64,000 nucleotides of DNA from Thermomonas sp. (GTDB lineage: Bacteria; Pseudomonadota; Gammaproteobacteria; Xanthomonadales; Xanthomonadaceae). The DNA lies in NCBI RefSeq assembly GCF_029945965.1, contig NZ_JAQSDO010000020.1, forward strand, positions 329,007-393,006, read 5' to 3'. Positions 4,047 to 14,493 of this stretch are shown piece after piece; the first letter of the stretch is position 1, and each line of letters opens with the position of its first letter. A program made the position numbers and the translations under genes. The notes beneath the pieces were generated by a model that saw nothing but the letters and a program-made list of their open reading frames with translations, ran no database searches and was not told the origin of the DNA.

Positions 4047-5107
4047 GATCTGTCCACGGGAATATAGTTGAAGTCGGGTCCGGCCAGCGTCCGGATTTCT
4101 TCCAGGTAGTTGGAGTTCATCACGAAAATCACGGCGTTGTCGGCTATTTGCGACACTCCGTAATCCGGGGCAAGCACCGGCAGGCCGCTGGCTGCCAAGA
4201 ATTTTCCCTGTTTGGCCGGATTGATGTCGATAGCGAAATCCAAGGACAGGCCCCGATTGATTGCGTGGTGCGAGAACATCACCCCCTTGGCTGCACCGCC
4301 CCAGACGATGTGTTGCGGAGCGTGGGCGCCTTGGTCGAGGCAATGATCAATATTGGCGAAAAAATCACCGGGTATGGAGACAGGAGCATGTGGACCGAAA
4401 GTCGCAGGGTCTCGGAGTGACGACAGCTCCGCAACCGCGTACAGGTACTGACCGCCAAACAGGTGGCCCGACTCGCGAACCGTTGCGAACATCCGGTTGA
4501 AGTCCGTGAGGCGGAAGTAGTTCACATGTTCGTAGAACACATCGAACCAAGTGCGCTTGCGCAGAATCCAGTCCAGGCAGGGGACTTCGATGTAGACCGT
4601 GCCTTGGTCGCCATTCGCGCGCCGGATCGTGTCCAGGAAGGCCAGCGGTTGCGGAATGTGCTCCAGAACGTGTCGCATGACGATGGCATCACCACGGATG
4701 CCAAGTTCCGGTTCAAACCGTGCCTTGGTGATGTAGGGCGAATCGCCCTCGTATGCCGGGTCCACGCCCCAGGCATCGTGGCCATCGTTGCGTAATTGAT
4801 CGAGAAATGCGCCCTTGCCGCATCCAATCTCAAGGATGCGCGCGGAGCGGAAATGCCGTTCAAGCGTGGCGAGCACTTCCGACAGATGTTCCTGGAACAT
4901 CGACGAGTGGCCCTGCTCGTTCTGGTAGCTCTTGTCGTAGTCGAGTTTGCGCGGATCGAAGGCGATGTTGCTGACTAGTCCAGTAGCATCGTCCTGCATC
5001 AGTATTACGTCACCACGTGGACAGGCTCGTGCCGCAGCTACCGTATCGAACATCTTGTTCTGGTAGACTGGGACGTCTTGTAGCCGCAACAGTTCTCGCG
5101 CACTCAT
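4043..5107 (-). CDS. Class I SAM methyltransferase with C-terminal Methyltransf_14-like domain
   Basis: A 354-residue protein. A SAM-binding Rossmann domain begins around residue 85 (ARILEIGCGKGAFLDQL), with the later motif RHVLEHIPQPLAFLDTI. The C-terminal third (VWGGAAKGVMF, then DINPAKQGKFL) resembles the C-terminal domain of sugar C-methyltransferases, as in the neighbouring gene at 5946. Its N-terminus (LQDVPVYQNKMF) corresponds to the spot where relatives carry a zinc-binding four-cysteine knuckle, but that knuckle is not intact here. Both ends are coupled by ATGA overlaps: the start at 5107 overlaps the stop of the reductase gene, and its stop overlaps the next start. It probably methylates a nucleotide sugar or glycan. 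Substrate unknown. Confidence 0.82.
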   Translation of the reverse strand: MSARELLRLQDVPVYQNKMFDTVAAARACPRGDVILMQDDATGLVSNIAFDPRKLDYDKSYQNEQGHSSMFQEHLSEVLATLERHFRSARILEIGCGKGAFLDQLRNDGHDAWGVDPAYEGDSPYITKARFEPELGIRGDAIVMRHVLEHIPQPLAFLDTIRRANGDQGTVYIEVPCLDWILRKRTWFDVFYEHVNYFRLTDFNRMFATVRESGHLFGGQYLYAVAELSSLRDPATFGPHAPVSIPGDFFANIDHCLDQGAHAPQHIVWGGAAKGVMFSHHAINRGLSLDFAIDINPAKQGKFLAASGLPVLAPDYGVSQIADNAVIFVMNSNYLEEIRTLAGPDFNYIPVDRS

Positions 5108-5943
5108 GGCGTCCCCAATAACGAATGAAGTTTCATGGTGCTTCCCCAAAATGCATGGGGTTCATACTCGGGATAAGGATATACGCCCAGTTTCAGCGTC
5201 AGGTCGGCACCCCATTCGGAAAGCCATGCACGCGCCCAGGACACCACTGGTTTCGCGGTACCACCACACACGTTGACCACGCCTGCATCCGGTGCCTCCA
5301 ACGCAAGCGCACACAGATACGCGGCAGCGGCGTCGATTGGAAGGAAATCTCTTTGTTGGTCACCGGGAGACATGGGGAACTCAGTCGCGCCAGCTTCGAC
5401 GGCCGTTCGCAACTGGGAATACAACGAGGTGGGTGCCTGGCCTGGTCCATATAGGTAGAACAGTCGTGCCCACGCAAGCTGCAGTCCGTCCGCTGCCACG
5501 CAGGCATCGAGATGCTCGCGCAAGCGGTCTTTGGCTTGGCCATAGGCAGTGATTGGGGCGGTACGCAGTGACTCGTCGAGGCAGCCTGATTGCATGCCGT
5601 ACTCGAGGCAGGTACCCGCCACGACCAGACGACGAAGCCCGGCGTTCACGCAAGCATCAAGGAAACCGATCTGTCGCGGCAGCTCACTCTCCAGGTGCGT
5701 TGCTGCACGATAGTCCGGGAGACCACTCCAAGCGAGATGCAGCAACACGTCCGGGCGCCCGATCGAGTCATACATGTGTGCGTTGTCGGCGCCGATGTCC
5801 AGTTCGACGGGAGTCACCGATGGGCTGATGGAAGCATCGGGGTGTCGCGCAATTGCTATGACGTCGATGCCACGTCGTGCGGCAAGTTGTCGCACGACAT
5901 GACGTCCGATGAATCCACTGGATCCAGTGACAGCAACCCGCAT
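5104..5943 (-). CDS. NAD(P)-dependent sugar epimerase/reductase (extended SDR)
   Basis: A 279-residue short-chain dehydrogenase of the extended (epimerase/dehydratase) type. The nucleotide-binding motif GSSGFIG is at residues 7-13, followed by LLHLAW, the catalytic Ser/Thr region AGTCLEYG, and the Tyr-x3-Lys pair in AYGQAK. Relatives include CDP-paratose/abequose synthases and 4-ketoreductases of deoxysugar pathways. Placed directly after the C-methyltransferase (2-base gap) in an operon that starts with rfbF and rfbG, it is the best candidate for the enzyme that reduces the C4 keto group of a CDP-linked, C3-methylated 6-deoxyhexose. The start at 5943 is the ATG immediately before MRVAVTGSSGFIG. 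The exact stereochemistry cannot be inferred. Confidence 0.83.
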   Translation of the reverse strand: MRVAVTGSSGFIGRHVVRQLAARRGIDVIAIARHPDASISPSVTPVELDIGADNAHMYDSIGRPDVLLHLAWSGLPDYRAATHLESELPRQIGFLDACVNAGLRRLVVAGTCLEYGMQSGCLDESLRTAPITAYGQAKDRLREHLDACVAADGLQLAWARLFYLYGPGQAPTSLYSQLRTAVEAGATEFPMSPGDQQRDFLPIDAAAAYLCALALEAPDAGVVNVCGGTAKPVVSWARAWLSEWGADLTLKLGVYPYPEYEPHAFWGSTMKLHSLLGTP

Positions 5944-5945
5944 GT

Positions 5946-7169
5946 TCAAAGAACCTCCAGACTCGGCACCGCAACCACGAATTTCCCACCCCATTCACGG
6001 ATGTACGCGAGCTGCGCCGTGATCTCTTCGCGCAGGTTCCAGGGCAGGACTACCACGAAGTCCGGCTTGGCCTCGCGCAAGTGCTGTTCGTCGACGACCG
6101 GGATGCGCGCGCCGGGCAGGTAGCGTCCCTGCTTGTGCGGCGAGGCATCGGCGACGAAGGCCAGCAGGTCAGTTCGCACGCCGGCGAAGTTGAGCAGGGT
6201 GTTGCCCTTCGCCGCTGCGCCATAACCGGCGACCTGTTTGCCGTTACGTTTCTGCAGAAGCAGGAACGTCAGGAAATCATTCTTTACCACCTCGGCGACC
6301 GACTGGAAGCCCTGGTACCAAGTCAGCTCGAACATCCCGGCGGCCTGTTCCTTCGCCAGCATCGCCGCCACCGCAGGCGTTCCGGGGTGCATGGCGTCGT
6401 CGCGGCAGGCCCAGATACGCAACGAACCACCATGGGTAAGCAGCGATTCCACATCCCACACGCGCAGGCCGTGCGCCGCAAGAATCCGACACGTCGTATG
6501 CAACGACAGATAGGAAAAATGCTCGTGGTAGACCGTATCGAACTGGCGGTTGGCGACCAGCTCCAGCAGATGCGGGAACTCGATCGTGACCACGCCCTGT
6601 GGTGCAAGCAGCGCCGCAAAGCCGGCAACGAAGTCGTTTATGTCGGGGACATGCGCGAGCACGTTGTTGGCGACGATCAGGTCGGCGTGGCCACGACGAT
6701 TGGCGAATCCACGCGCGAACGCCTCGCCGAAGAATCGTTCTTCGGTTTCGATCCCGCGCATGCGGGCCGCCTGCGCGGTGCCGGCGGTTGGTTCGACGCC
6801 GACGCAGGGAATGTCACGCGCGCTGACGTATTGCAGCAGGTAGCCGTCGTTGGACGCTACTTCGACCACCAGACTGCCGGCGTCGAGTGACAATCGCGGC
6901 ACGACTGCCGACACGTAATGTTCGGCGTGTTGCAGCCACGAGCGCGAGTACGACGAAAAATAAGCGTAGTCCGGTGCAAACAGTTGTTCGTGGTGCTGGA
7001 CCTCATCGACCTGGACAAGATGACATTGCGCGCAGGTGTACAGCTTCAGCGGAAACCATGCCTCGGGTGCTTGCAGCGCTTCATGGGACAGGAAGGCGTT
7101 CGACGGCGGCGCCGTACCAAGGTCCAGGAACACGTCGCGCAAGAGCGTCCCGCAGAAACGGCACTTCAT
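5946..7169 (-). CDS. NDP-hexose C-methyltransferase (zinc-knuckle, TylCIII-like architecture)
   Basis: A 407-residue protein with the three-part layout of sugar C3-methyltransferases. An N-terminal zinc knuckle has Cys3-x2-Cys6 and Cys46-x2-Cys49. A SAM-binding domain carries the family-specific motif VEVASNDGYLL (near residue 104). A C-terminal domain contains GYGAAAKGNTLLNF. TylC3 and related enzymes add a methyl group to C3 of a 4-keto-6-deoxy nucleotide sugar. The upstream genes make CDP-4-keto-6-deoxyglucose and act on it with an RmlC-like epimerase, so the likely substrate is a CDP-4-keto-6-deoxyhexose. The ATG at 7169 overlaps the TGA of the epimerase gene, giving translational coupling. 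Family membership is clear; substrate is inference. Confidence 0.86.
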   Translation of the reverse strand: MKCRFCGTLLRDVFLDLGTAPPSNAFLSHEALQAPEAWFPLKLYTCAQCHLVQVDEVQHHEQLFAPDYAYFSSYSRSWLQHAEHYVSAVVPRLSLDAGSLVVEVASNDGYLLQYVSARDIPCVGVEPTAGTAQAARMRGIETEERFFGEAFARGFANRRGHADLIVANNVLAHVPDINDFVAGFAALLAPQGVVTIEFPHLLELVANRQFDTVYHEHFSYLSLHTTCRILAAHGLRVWDVESLLTHGGSLRIWACRDDAMHPGTPAVAAMLAKEQAAGMFELTWYQGFQSVAEVVKNDFLTFLLLQKRNGKQVAGYGAAAKGNTLLNFAGVRTDLLAFVADASPHKQGRYLPGARIPVVDEQHLREAKPDFVVVLPWNLREEITAQLAYIREWGGKFVVAVPSLEVL

Positions 7170-7717
7170 GCCTGTACTCCCACGAAGGTGTCGTCGAGCA
7201 GTGGATGCGCACGGTCGCGGTCTGACACATGGATCGGCGGCAGCGGCCAGTCGATCGCCAGGCGCGGATCATCATGACGCAGCCCGCCTTCGCAAGCAGG
7301 CGTCCACGGCGTGGTGTGGAAGTACAGCAGTTGCACGTCATCACTCAAGGCCTGGAAGCCGTGCGCAAAGCCTTCAGGAATGAAGATGGCCCGCGGTTCT
7401 GCCGCGCGCAGTTCGATCGCGTGCCACTTCAGGAAGGTTGGCGATCCGACACGCACGTCGATTGCAACGTCGAAGGCATGCCCGCGCACGCAACGGATCA
7501 GCTTTGCCTCCGCTGCAGGTTCGCGCTGGAAGTGCATGCCACGCACGCTACCGCGCTCGGCGGTCGTCGAGAGGTTGACCTGGACGAAGCGCAGGCCTGC
7601 ACGCAACGGTGCCCATTCCTGTTCGCAGAACAGGCGCTCGAACGATCCGCGGGCGTCAGCATTCGACACGGTTTGCACAATCTGCAGGCCTGCCAATGGC
7701 GTCGGCAACAGCTTCAT
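7166..7717 (-). CDS. RmlC-like nucleotide-sugar 3(,5)-epimerase, catalytic Tyr replaced by Trp
   Basis: A 183-residue cupin close in length to RmlC (dTDP-4-dehydrorhamnose 3,5-epimerase). The catalytic-base region RGMHFQ (His62), the cupin strand VRGHAFDVAIDVR and the segment IPEGFAHGFQ are all kept. Where RmlC enzymes have a Tyr in the T-x2-Tyr-x-Pro motif (the catalytic acid), this protein has TTPWTP with Trp138, by alignment by eye. This suggests a changed epimerisation outcome, for example at C3 only. It works on the product of RfbG, so the substrate should be CDP-linked; the AscE 5-epimerase of the ascarylose pathway is a CDP-acting relative. The start at 7717 is the ATG that overlaps the rfbG TGA. 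A start three codons upstream is also possible. Confidence 0.85.
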   Translation of the reverse strand: MKLLPTPLAGLQIVQTVSNADARGSFERLFCEQEWAPLRAGLRFVQVNLSTTAERGSVRGMHFQREPAAEAKLIRCVRGHAFDVAIDVRVGSPTFLKWHAIELRAAEPRAIFIPEGFAHGFQALSDDVQLLYFHTTPWTPACEGGLRHDDPRLAIDWPLPPIHVSDRDRAHPLLDDTFVGVQA

Positions 7718-8820
7718 GTCGCCCATTCCAGGCCGGCGCTGCGCGCATCGTCCACATAGGCGACGAGATCGTCGCGGCTGCACACGCTGCCGCCTGTGGA
7801 GTAGGCGCGGTACCACTGCGCGGTGCGTTGCAGGGTCGTGTCCGCGTTCCATACCGGACGCCATGCGAGTTCGCGCGCGGCTTTGCTGCAGTCCAGAGAG
7901 AGTTGCCCGGCTTCATGCGGATGCGGGCCGGCATCGGTTTCGACCTTTACCTTGGGGAACTCGCGCTGAAGGCGGGCGACAACATCGCCGACGGTGAGGG
8001 TGGCATCAGCGGCAGGTCCGAAATTCCAGGCGTCACCGCCCGCCGTTCCGCTGAGCAATGCCTGTGCTGCACGAAGGTAGCCAGAGAGCGGGTCCAGCAC
8101 GTGCTGCCATGGACGGGTCGCCCGCGGATTACGGATGCGCAACGTCCGGCCGCTCGACGTGGCTCGCATGAAGTCGGGCACCAGCCGGTCCTCGCCCCAG
8201 TCGCCGCCGCCGATGACATTGCCCGCGCGCGCGGTCGCCAGTTGCACCGTGTGCCCGCGGCCGTCGTCAAAATCGAAGTAGCTACGCCGATAGCAGGTCG
8301 ACACCAATTCGGCGCAGGCTTTCGAGGTGCTGTACGGGTCGTGCCCGCCGAGGCGATCGTCCTCGCGGTAAACGTCCGGCACGGCATGCGGTTCGTAGAC
8401 CTTGTCGGTGGTTGCGTTGATCACAACGCGTACCGAAGGGCACACCCGCACCGCGTCGAGCAGGTGCACGAGTCCGCCGACATTGGTGTCGAATGTGGTT
8501 GCAGGCTCGCGATAGCTGCGTCGCACCAGTGGCTGCGCGGCGAGGTGGAAAATGACCTCAGGCGCGGCTGCGGCGATGGCGGCAGTCACGGCTGCGGCAT
8601 CGCGCAAGTCGATGCGCGCCTCGTGCTTGAGCTGCAGATTGAGTAGCTGCCAGTGTGACGGGTCGGTATCGGGGTCGAGTGCGAGCCCGCTGACTTCGGC
8701 CCCAAGCGCCTGCAGCCAAAGCACCAGCCACGAGCCCTTGAACCCGGTGTGGCCGGTCACCAGGACGCGGCGGCCAGCGTAAAGACCACCAAATAATGGA
8801 TTTAATCCCAGCGCTTCCAA
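7714..8820 (-). CDS. rfbG: CDP-glucose 4,6-dehydratase
   Basis: A 368-residue extended SDR. The nucleotide-binding motif TGHTGFKG lies at residues 22-29 from the chosen start. It continues with [22 protein letters not shown] and [10 protein letters not shown] (Tyr-x3-Lys), all diagnostic of CDP-glucose 4,6-dehydratase (RfbG/DdhB). It makes CDP-4-keto-6-deoxy-D-glucose from CDP-glucose. No ATG or GTG fits the expected N-terminus. A TTG at 8820 gives [12 protein letters not shown] ahead of the core and the usual family length of about 360 residues. That start overlaps the end of rfbF by 19 bases, implying coupled translation. The stop overlaps the start of the epimerase gene. Confidence 0.93.
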
Positions 8821-9572
8821 GGCGCGCTCCCGCTCTGCCACAGTTCTTCCAGCTTGATCTTGTCGCGCAGCGTGTCCATCGGCTGCCAAAAACCGTCGTG
8901 GGCGTAGGCCGCCAATTGCCCATCGCGTGCGAGCGCTTCCAGCGGCTCGCGTTCCCATACGCTGTCGTCGCCGTCGATGTAACGCAGCGCATCTGGTTCG
9001 AGCACGAAGAACCCGCCGTTGATCCAGGAGCCGTCGCCTTGTGGCTTCTCAGTGAAACGGGTGATGCGGTTGGCGTTGATGTCGAGTGCGCCGAACCGGC
9101 CGGGCGGTTGCACTGCGCACGCCGTCGCCAGTGCGCCATGTTCGCGATGAAAGGCCAGTTCGGCGCCGATGTCGATGTTGGACAGACCATCGCCATAGGT
9201 GAAGCAGAAGGTGTCGCCGTCGAGGAATTCCGATGCGCGCTTCAGCCGGCCGCCGGTCTGGGTGAGCTCACCGGTATCGACCAAAGTCACCCGCCATGGT
9301 TCGGCGTGGCGATGGTGCACCTGCATCTCGTTGCGTGCCAGGTCAAAAGTGACGTCTGACGTATGCAGGAAATAATTAGCGAAGTACTCCTTCACCATGT
9401 AGCCCTTGTAGCCCAGGCAGATGACAAAGTCGTTGATGCCGAAGTGCGAATATGTCTTGAGAATGTGCCAGAGCACCGGCTTGCCGCCAATCTCGATCAT
9501 TGGCTTCGGGCGCAGCGTGGTTTCTTCGCTGATCCGCGTTCCAAGTCCACCTGCAAGCACGACGGCCTTCAT
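8802..9572 (-). CDS. rfbF: Glucose-1-phosphate cytidylyltransferase
   Basis: A 256-residue nucleotidyltransferase with the sugar-1-phosphate transferase signature GGLGTR (residues 8-13) and RPKPM (21-25, Lys23). RfbF-type features follow: [34 protein letters not shown] and [11 protein letters not shown]. It joins CTP and glucose-1-phosphate to give CDP-glucose. It is the first gene of the operon and supplies the CDP-sugar for rfbG, which it overlaps. The start at 9572 gives MKAVVLAGG, the standard N-terminus. A 271-base gap lies upstream, presumably with the operon promoter, although no confident -35/-10 pair could be picked. Confidence 0.95.
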
Positions 9573-13224: not shown

Positions 13225-13259
13225 ATAATATATGAAACATATCCTGCTCAGGAGTGGGT

Positions 13260-13763
13260 GTGTCAGCTCAGAAGACTCTTGCAAAGAACCCTATTCTTGA
13301 TCAGGCGCGACAGCTTGGTGCCGCGCTGCGGGCACACCGAAAGACGCTCGGGATCAGCATGACCGTGGCTGCGGAGACTGCGGGGATCTCGCGGGTGACG
13401 TGGCATCGGCTGGAAAAGGGGGAGTTCGGCGTGGCGTGGGGTTCCTTGCTGGCGGCCGCTGAGGTATTGGGTATGCAGCTACACCTTGGCATCGGTAAGG
13501 CGGTTGGCGATAGTGAAGAATCTGCGGTACTGGTCTTGCTGGAGGACGCGCTGCCCTTGCACATCCGGTTGACGGATTACCCAGGGCTGCGCCGCCTGGC
13601 GTGGCAGGTAGGTGAGGCCGTAGACACTCTGAGCCCGCGCGAGGCATTCGGTTTGTACACGCGAAACGCACGACATCTCGATCTGGACGAACTCTCGCCG
13701 GGTGAGCAGTTGTTGCTGCGTGCGCTGCGTGATGTATTCGGCGAGGCTACTGCGGATGTATGA
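13260..13763 (+). CDS. XRE-family transcriptional regulator, putative antitoxin
   Basis: A 167-residue protein with an N-terminal helix-turn-helix of the XRE/Cro type: LGAALRAHRKTLGISMTVAAETAGISRVTWHRLEKGEFGVAWGSLLAAAEVLGM, written here as about residues 19-72. It has a C-terminal extension of about 90 residues of unknown fold. A GTG at 13260 is preferred over the in-frame GTG at 13254 because AGGAG lies five bases before it. The gene overlaps the downstream nucleotidyltransferase by eight bases. This is the classical coupled antitoxin-toxin layout, although the usual AbiE antitoxin is a different protein (AbiEi, winged helix). A palindrome at 13207-13224 suggests autoregulation. Confidence 0.8.
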   Translation: MSAQKTLAKNPILDQARQLGAALRAHRKTLGISMTVAAETAGISRVTWHRLEKGEFGVAWGSLLAAAEVLGMQLHLGIGKAVGDSEESAVLVLLEDALPLHIRLTDYPGLRRLAWQVGEAVDTLSPREAFGLYTRNARHLDLDELSPGEQLLLRALRDVFGEATADV

Positions 13764-14493
13764 CCGGCCACATCACCAGCGCATCGCCCGCGTGTTGGAA
13801 TCGCTCGATGGTGGCTTGCTACGCGATCACGCGTGCTGGTTTGGTGGGGGTACCGCCATTTCCTTGCGTCTTGGCGAGTTCCGCGAGTCCGTGGATATCG
13901 ATTTCCTGGTTTCGGACGGCGCAGGTTATCGAGAGTTGCGCCAGCGCCTGCGCGCGGCGACCAGCCTGGCGGCGTTGACACGTCCCGGCGTTACGCCATT
14001 GCCACTTACGCGGGAGTTGCGCATGGATCAGTACGGGCTGCGCGGCTTCGTTGACATCGGGCTGAAACCGATCAAGTTCGAGATCGTTCACGAAGGTCGC
14101 GTCGAATTCGCGTACCCAAGTGTCACAGACGAAGTGTGCGACGTGGCGACGCTGGGGTGGAACGACTTGGCTGCCAGCAAGCTGCTCGCAAATGCGGATC
14201 GCTGGCGGGACGACAGTGTTTTTTCCCGGGACGTCATCGATTTGGCGTTCATGGATCTGCCGCCGCGCAAGCTGACGCCCGCCCTGGACAAGGCATTCGC
14301 TGCCTATGGCCCCTCGGTGGCAACAGATCTTGAAAAGGCATTGGTTGCGCTGCGCGTGCGCAATGGCTGGTTGGCGCGCTGCGTGGCCGCGCTCTCCATC
14401 CGGGAGCCGCCTGCGGCCGTGCAGCAGAAATTGCGGCGCTTGGAGCGCCGGCTGGTGGCGGTGTCGCGAGAGGCTGCTGATGTGGGTCGTTGA
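13756..14493 (+). CDS. AbiEii/AbiGii-type nucleotidyltransferase, putative toxin
   Basis: A 245-residue protein of the AbiEii/AbiGii (DUF1814) nucleotidyltransferase family. The active-site signature is clear: WFGGGTAISLRLGEFRES has Gly30-Gly31-Gly32-Thr33, followed by VDIDFLV with Asp47 and Asp49 as metal ligands. A later lysine in AASKLLANADRWRDD matches the third conserved block. Family members such as AbiEii and MenT toxins add nucleotides to RNA or tRNA ends and stop growth, in phage defence or stress. The start at 13756 is chosen because its ATG overlaps the XRE stop region and yields the family-typical N-terminus. Toxicity and target are inferred, not shown. Confidence 0.82.
   Translation: MYDRPHHQRIARVLESLDGGLLRDHACWFGGGTAISLRLGEFRESVDIDFLVSDGAGYRELRQRLRAATSLAALTRPGVTPLPLTRELRMDQYGLRGFVDIGLKPIKFEIVHEGRVEFAYPSVTDEVCDVATLGWNDLAASKLLANADRWRDDSVFSRDVIDLAFMDLPPRKLTPALDKAFAAYGPSVATDLEKALVALRVRNGWLARCVAALSIREPPAAVQQKLRRLERRLVAVSREAADVGR

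Follow-up and report, generated by a model that had tools for sequence, protein, structure and literature searches.

CDP-vinelose, in which 6-deoxy-3-C-methyl-2-O-methyl-L-talose is carried on cytidine diphosphate (CDP), is known from Azotobacter vinelandii. In Synechocystis, slr0983, slr0984, slr0985 and slr1610 are given, in this order, as rfbF, rfbG, rfbC and a gene for a putative C-3 methyltransferase; the passage (PMC3769361) also refers to Hausman 1998 on the rfbFGC genes of A. vinelandii. For Sinorhizobium meliloti, the relevant entries of PMC4053727 list ddhA, ddhB and a nucleoside diphosphate (NDP)-hexose 3-C-methyltransferase, adjacent by locus tag (SMb21416-21418). Here we describe an operon in a 64,000-nucleotide stretch of DNA from Thermomonas sp. 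(assembly GCF_029945965.1, contig NZ_JAQSDO010000020.1, positions 329,007 to 393,006; hereafter the window) that has the same gene types in the same order as Synechocystis and the same kinds of gene as the Sinorhizobium set. The Synechocystis cluster differs in having O-antigen-type ABC transporter genes, and for neither of these systems do the passages concerned state or propose a product. A TylC3-type methyltransferase is also proposed for a surface glycan of Coxiella, that of virenose, but the part of PMC3539893 on this sugar proposes guanosine diphosphate (GDP) or thymidine diphosphate (TDP) routes, naming reductase candidates for the GDP route and lacking a confident one for the TDP route; we dropped Coxiella-type virenose as the closest match because of these carriers. 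We think it likely that the Thermomonas operon makes a CDP-linked, vinelose-type 6-deoxy-3-C-methylhexose, and that the resulting glycan is flipped by a Wzx protein and probably delivered to a type IV pilin. The genes in question are listed below.

9572-8802, minus strand: rfbF, glucose-1-phosphate cytidylyltransferase (TIGR02623, 457.6 bits; cut-off 300.25)
8820-7714, minus strand: rfbG, CDP-glucose 4,6-dehydratase, with a TTG start (TIGR02622, 438.9 bits; cut-off 278.45)
7717-7166, minus strand: RmlC-like NDP-4-keto-6-deoxyhexose epimerase (PF00908, E 4e-56; RGxH and LY motif residues kept)
7169-5946, minus strand: CMT, a zinc-finger sugar C-methyltransferase, proposed 3-C-methyltransferase (zinc-binding PF08421, PF13489, and PF08484 at 209 bits)
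5943-5104, minus strand: extended SDR (short-chain dehydrogenase/reductase), proposed CDP-4-keto-sugar C4 reductase (PF01370; GSSGFIG and YGQAK in the translation)
5107-4043, minus strand: MT2, a methyltransferase distantly related to C-methyltransferases (PF13489, weak PF08484; zinc-domain match absent)
4046-3240, minus strand: member of the CmcI/rhamnosyl O-methyltransferase family and proposed sugar (2-)O-methyltransferase (PF04989, 310.7 bits)
3202-1700, minus strand: Wzx-like flippase (PF01943)
1668-454, minus strand: family 2 glycosyltransferase (PF00535)

Transcription of the operon runs from 9572 towards position 1. The minus strand carries all five genes named in an earlier, sequence-only reading of this DNA (rfbF, rfbG, the RmlC-like gene, the zinc-finger CMT and the SDR), arranged as that reading said. 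Its description of the junctions as mostly ATGA overlaps fits two of the four, rfbG/rmlC and rmlC/CMT, which overlap by 4 bases; rfbF and rfbG overlap by 19 bases, and CMT and SDR lie 2 bases apart. By ending the operon at 5104, the same reading cut it short, as the MT2 and CmcI-like genes continue it downstream of the SDR, each joined by a 4-base overlap. Gene starts were chosen by us, and the Pfam and NCBIfam scans were run on the longer mechanical open reading frames.

The CDP carrier is supported by the RfbF/RfbG pair, whose identities hold up at scores above both NCBIfam equivalog cut-offs. The claimed absence of an RfbH/DdhC-type C3 deoxygenase agrees with a search of the whole window genome with the RfbH model NF011936, which found two places, at 125.4 and 62.9 bits, both below the cut-off of 423; the 14 control genomes also had no match over the cut-off and so supplied no positive control. 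These two places are the strongest of nine PF01041 places in the genome, and the better one is a WecE-type protein (585-595 bits). With no RfbH over the cut-off, we rejected the CDP-3,6-dideoxyhexose routes to abequose, paratose, tyvelose and yersiniose. A dTDP branched-sugar route of the mycarose or noviose type was also rejected, the pair in the cluster being RfbF/RfbG and the rmlA, rmlC and rmlD set lying elsewhere, on contig C6 of the window genome (rmlB was not looked for). Since another rmlC sits there with rmlA and rmlD, we take the RmlC-like gene of the operon to be a separate paralogue. As the predicted product, a CDP-linked 6-deoxy-3-C-methylhexose is well supported.

PF08421 marks a single place in the 3.24-Mb window genome. 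CMT has the composition of the TylC3-type family, namely a Methyltransf_13 zinc domain, an S-adenosylmethionine (AdoMet) domain, a Methyltransf_14 C-terminal domain and the conserved His and Tyr-x-Glu-His, and it aligns over its full length with ten solved sequences (E values from 1.6e-74 to 1.3e-62). Three of these are named sugar 3-C-methyltransferases (4rv9, the D-mycarose enzyme, 5t64 and 5t6b) and seven are TcaB9, likewise a 3-C-methyltransferase. The residues C3, C6, C46, C49, H173 and Y214-H-E-H217 are invariant in all nine aligned sequences; in TylC3-type methyltransferases, the conserved His and the Tyr-x-Glu-His have a catalytic role. The assignment of CMT to the 3-C-methyltransferase family made in the sequence-only reading is thus borne out by its domains and solved relatives, which share the zinc, AdoMet and C-terminal domains but belong to systems with a dTDP carrier that make antibiotic sugars.

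The solved relatives and the A. vinelandii operon (see below) point to C3 as the probable site of methylation. If the methyl group instead went to C5, as in the noviose pathway, the product would be a CDP-linked 5-C-methyl-6-deoxyhexose. The noviose enzymes NovV, NovT, NovW, NovU and NovS follow the same order of enzyme types, a 4-ketone activates C3 and C5 equally, and the RmlC-like protein scores nearly alike with RmlC (122.5 bits) and with NovW (121.9 bits), which is a 3-epimerase. However, the solved relatives of CMT are 3-C-methyltransferases or TcaB9 (NovU was not in the comparison), and A. vinelandii, whose CDP-sugar carries its methyl group on C3, has its only PF08421 gene in a like operon, so that methylation at C5 strikes us as very improbable. 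For a 3-C-methylated product, the exact action of the epimerase matters less: the protein falls slightly below the TIGR01221 cut-off (146.3 versus 155.75 bits), and the residues around the RmlC tyrosine differ and do not settle 3- versus 5-epimerisation, but methylation makes C3 quaternary, which leaves C5 as the only one of the two centres whose configuration would count in the finished sugar. We infer that an L-sugar is the likelier outcome of this step.

In the pathway that we propose, RfbF would form CDP-glucose and RfbG would convert it to CDP-4-keto-6-deoxy-D-glucose, activities assigned to both from their family matches. The RmlC-like epimerase would then invert C5, and perhaps C3 too, to give the L-4-ulose. 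CMT, whose family membership is shown, would enolise the sugar beside the 4-ketone and add a methyl group from S-adenosylmethionine, predicted here to reach C3. The SDR would reduce the C4 ketone to a hydroxyl, MT2 would belong to this ketoreductase branch, and the CmcI-type enzyme would O-methylate the sugar, most likely at C2. Glycosyltransferases would build the sugar onto a lipid carrier, Wzx would flip the product, and the glycan would probably end on a type IV pilin, a step less certain than the chemistry.

We examined how the block is distributed in the window's order, taken to be Lysobacterales (Xanthomonadales). At E 1e-20 or better, 24 of its 299 genomes, the window genome counted, have a CMT match. 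A search of genomes for the block, proposed in the sequence-only reading, found the rfbF-rfbG-rmlC-CMT order in 17 of the 23 other CMT-bearing genomes, which argues that the arrangement is not due to chance. At each of these 17 loci a variable module follows and then a CmcI gene, on the same strand and 1.3-4.4 kb past CMT. The module is SDR plus MT2, as in the window, at four loci (L039, L044, L048, L051), a perosamine-synthase-like aminotransferase at 11 (L038, L040-L043, L045-L047, L049, L050, L052) and a hexapeptide-type protein with another SDR at two (L053, L054); the block is absent from the remaining six loci examined (L055-L060). The one aminotransferase compared with solved proteins, that of L045, matched perosamine synthetases best (E 4e-79). 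Because L038 (genome G160), from the same genus as the window, bears the aminotransferase, the C4 branch point is swapped at short evolutionary distance, even among species of one genus.

At two of the aminotransferase-type blocks (L042, L047), extra genes precede CmcI. By eye they resemble a methyltransferase gene and one for a PhyH-type oxygenase, a hint that these amino sugars carry additional decorations.

Across the phylum, CMT matches at E 1e-60 or better were present in 73 of 398 genomes at 80 places (window genome included); 60 of the 79 places outside the window were examined and 19 were left out. We counted co-directional genes within about 7.5 kb, at identity thresholds of 55% for rfbF, 40% for rfbG, only 27% for the SDR, 60% for the aminotransferase and 45% for MT2. 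At these settings two partial blocks (L190, L227) scored as misses, a 44% aminotransferase in L226 went uncounted and L228 entered two C4 types. Where CMT identity was at least 45.5%, 32 of 47 loci carried rfbF and rfbG, and these CDP blocks included rmlC in 30 cases and a CmcI-type gene in 23. Beside the 13 distant CMT controls, neither the rfbF-rfbG pair (0/13) nor CmcI (0/13) was found, so that both the CDP pair and the O-methyltransferase go together with the closer CMTs. Candidates for the C4 step were present in 31 of the 32 CDP blocks, 19 being of the SDR type, five the other SDR and eight an aminotransferase (L228 twice), a pattern that fits alternative C4 steps. MT2 occurred in six of the 32, each of them of the SDR type, and in no case beside the aminotransferase, which suggests a substrate made only in that branch, for example the 4-hydroxyl.

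Seven loci (L210, L213, L215, L216, L219, L224, L226) showed a second order, rfbF-rfbG-CMT-rmlC, with CmcI only in L210; they may make a sugar without the O-methyl group.

The earlier suggestion that the SDR is a 4-ketoreductase is plausible. Alternatively, the C4 ketone could be handled in another way, and the SDR and MT2 could have other roles, MT2 adding, for instance, a second carbon or oxygen methyl group. The SDR reached no NCBIfam cut-off in the scan of the window proteins, MT2 is distantly related to C-methyltransferases (E 7e-11 against 4rv9), and the confinement of MT2 to the SDR type (6/6) would suit such a role. Against this, 31 of 32 CDP blocks pair the trunk with an SDR or a 4-aminotransferase-like gene, albeit at lax thresholds, and the last one, L226, has its aminotransferase below threshold. 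We consider these other roles unlikely and retain C4 reduction by the SDR.

The best comparison for the whole operon is with Azotobacter, where two of four genomes (G304, G306) have CMT matches at 60-61% identity. We take G306 to be A. vinelandii because its NifH is 100% identical to that of this species, the other three genomes of the genus being at 96-97%. Its single PF08421 gene (G306:C1:2857012-2858232) lies in an operon rfbF-rfbG-rmlC-CMT-acyltransferase (LbH)-SDR-CmcI, with equivalog scores of 471 bits for RfbF and 469 bits for RfbG. This operon shares with the window the CDP carrier, the rfbF-rfbG-rmlC-CMT trunk in the same order (50-67% identity) and the CmcI-type O-methyltransferase (57% identical), and it differs in having a hexapeptide acyltransferase and a different SDR in place of the window's SDR and MT2. 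A TPR/GT41/GT2 protein (TPR, tetratricopeptide repeat) is encoded nearby, and no pilus gene matches were found there. The A. vinelandii operon offers a candidate for every step that the vinelose structure requires, and the trunk and the O-methylating cap have candidates in the window too, where the CmcI-like protein would methylate O-2 of an L-sugar. The C4 reductase of A. vinelandii, which would set the L-talo configuration, is not common to the two. As its SDR is not detectably like that of the window, the window product need not be vinelose itself; the two SDRs being of different groups, the window sugar may be a C4 epimer.

The other Azotobacter genome, G304, has the window's own order, rfbF-rfbG-rmlC-CMT-SDR-MT2-CmcI. 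Next to the block come a gene for a TPR/GT41/GT2 protein and one for flagellin (L156, 13287-18468), which suggests flagellin glycosylation.

We then considered the destination of the glycan. The sequence-only reading had looked to lipopolysaccharide (LPS), a choice that the neighbourhood does not support: the surroundings are those of a type IV pilus locus, with pilus genes on both sides of the island. Those inside the window are as follows.

11814-9844, minus strand: membrane protein with seven hydrophobic segments, its family TPR-like at the C-terminus; candidate pilin glycan transferase
12320-11976, minus strand: second type IV pilin-like gene, with a prepilin-like N-terminus in the translation
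12944-12510, minus strand: type IV pilin-like gene (PF07963, TIGR02532)
15981-14569, minus strand: pilR-like sigma-54 response regulator (PF00158, PF00072)
17714-16080, minus strand: pilS-like histidine kinase (PF25323 6TM_PilS, PF02518)

On the left flank, beyond the window (L036), the opposite strand carries three glycosyltransferase genes and a methyltransferase gene, after which come pilB-, pilC- and pilD-like genes and coaE. Glycan genes thus lie between pilin and pilus assembly genes, as would be expected of a pilin glycosylation locus, and beside the pilin is a membrane protein whose family has TPR and which gave no glycosyltransferase match. The profile of this family reaches TPR chains in the PDB, and nine of its 14 members match TPR_19, the window's own member matching no Pfam family; the PDB and Pfam searches returned TPR families and one DUF7027 match, and no glycosyltransferase. 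We read its layout as TMTC-like. Relatives of the membrane/TPR-type protein are present at all 17 block loci of the order, and a pilus-type match (pilin, PilB, PilC or PilR at E 1e-4 within 19-kb stretches) was found at 14 of the 17, nine being long PilB, PilC or PilR matches and five short pilin or PilB matches only; L041, L047 and L051 had none within 19 kb. The position of the island and the adjoining membrane/TPR-type protein make delivery to a type IV pilin probable, and a pilus glycan is, by the same position, at least as likely as LPS.

The same chemistry could, however, feed an O-antigen or exopolysaccharide, the pilus-side position being merely a convenient insertion site. A Wzx-like flippase together with several glycosyltransferases, as seen here, is usual for O-units. 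In addition, L057, L058 and L059, which have distant CMTs (26-28% identity) and no CDP block, likewise have pilus genes, pilB included, close by, so that the pilus site appears to receive glycan islands of various kinds. Outside the window's order, the 60 phylum loci examined gave no PilB or membrane/TPR-type match, which makes the pilus link look specific to that order. On the other side stand the pil genes flanking the island in the window genome, the pil-type matches at 14 of 17 relatives and the membrane/TPR-type relatives at all 17. We regard an O-antigen or exopolysaccharide as a real possibility, though one well short of even, and favour the pilin.

The membrane/TPR-type protein is doubled at eight of the 17 block loci (L040, L041, L043-L048), each copy being 27-34% identical to that of the window; possibly each copy serves one of two pilins.

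Several observations weigh against the account given here, among them the near-equal RmlC and NovW scores and the lack of PilB matches at the 60 phylum loci. Fifteen of the 47 close CMTs lacked the rfbF-rfbG pair at the chosen thresholds, nine of the 32 CDP blocks had no CmcI within about 7.5 kb, and two control loci (L234, L244) had an rfbF match of 51-54% without rfbG. CMT was absent from two of the four Azotobacter genomes, A. beijerinckii (L065) among them, and from four further named pseudomonad-type genomes (0/5 counting A. beijerinckii). At E 1e-4 the window SDR matched nothing in the A. vinelandii locus. CDP-vinelose itself was reportedly isolated from A. vinelandii by Okuda and co-workers in the 1960s.

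More broadly, the loci could be versions of a modular CDP cassette, a model that we offer tentatively and hold at a little under an even chance. A constant rfbF-rfbG-rmlC-CMT trunk would lead to a 4-keto-3-C-methyl-6-deoxy-L-hexose, an exchangeable module (ketoreductase and MT2, perosamine-synthase-like aminotransferase, or acyltransferase and SDR) would act at C4, and an O-methyltransferase would form the cap. On this model, the orphan nucleotide sugar CDP-vinelose would be made by the A. vinelandii copy, and the sugars would be attached to protein filaments, namely the type IV pili of the window's order and the flagellin of at least one Azotobacter. If this is true, it provides a concrete gene set for a nucleotide sugar reported in the 1960s, extends TylC3-type methylation to CDP sugars and places branched methylated sugars on pili and flagella, where they may matter for phage adsorption and surface recognition.

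The compound class was already known. As to the literature, our search found no paper with a word beginning 'vinelose' and none that ties the block to CDP-vinelose or pili, most subscription journals lying outside the search. Four points are new as far as searched: the tie to CDP-vinelose, the recurrence of the O-methyltransferase, the exchange of the C4 module and the position in a pilus locus. The arrangement itself is in print, as rfbF-rfbG-rfbC with a putative C-3 methyltransferase for Synechocystis and as rfbFGC for A. vinelandii in the passage cited at the outset (PMC3769361), so the idea that the combination may be undescribed is not supported for the arrangement. That idea and the LPS destination are the parts of the sequence-only reading that lack support; its CDP carrier, 3-C-methyltransferase family, plausible 4-ketoreductase and missing RfbH remain, and it had overlooked the CmcI-type O-methyltransferase, MT2, the match to CDP-vinelose and the C5-methylation alternative.

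Between pilR and the pilins (window 13254-14493) lie a helix-turn-helix gene (PF13560) and, by eye, an AbiEii-like nucleotidyltransferase gene, which together look like a toxin-antitoxin-type pair.

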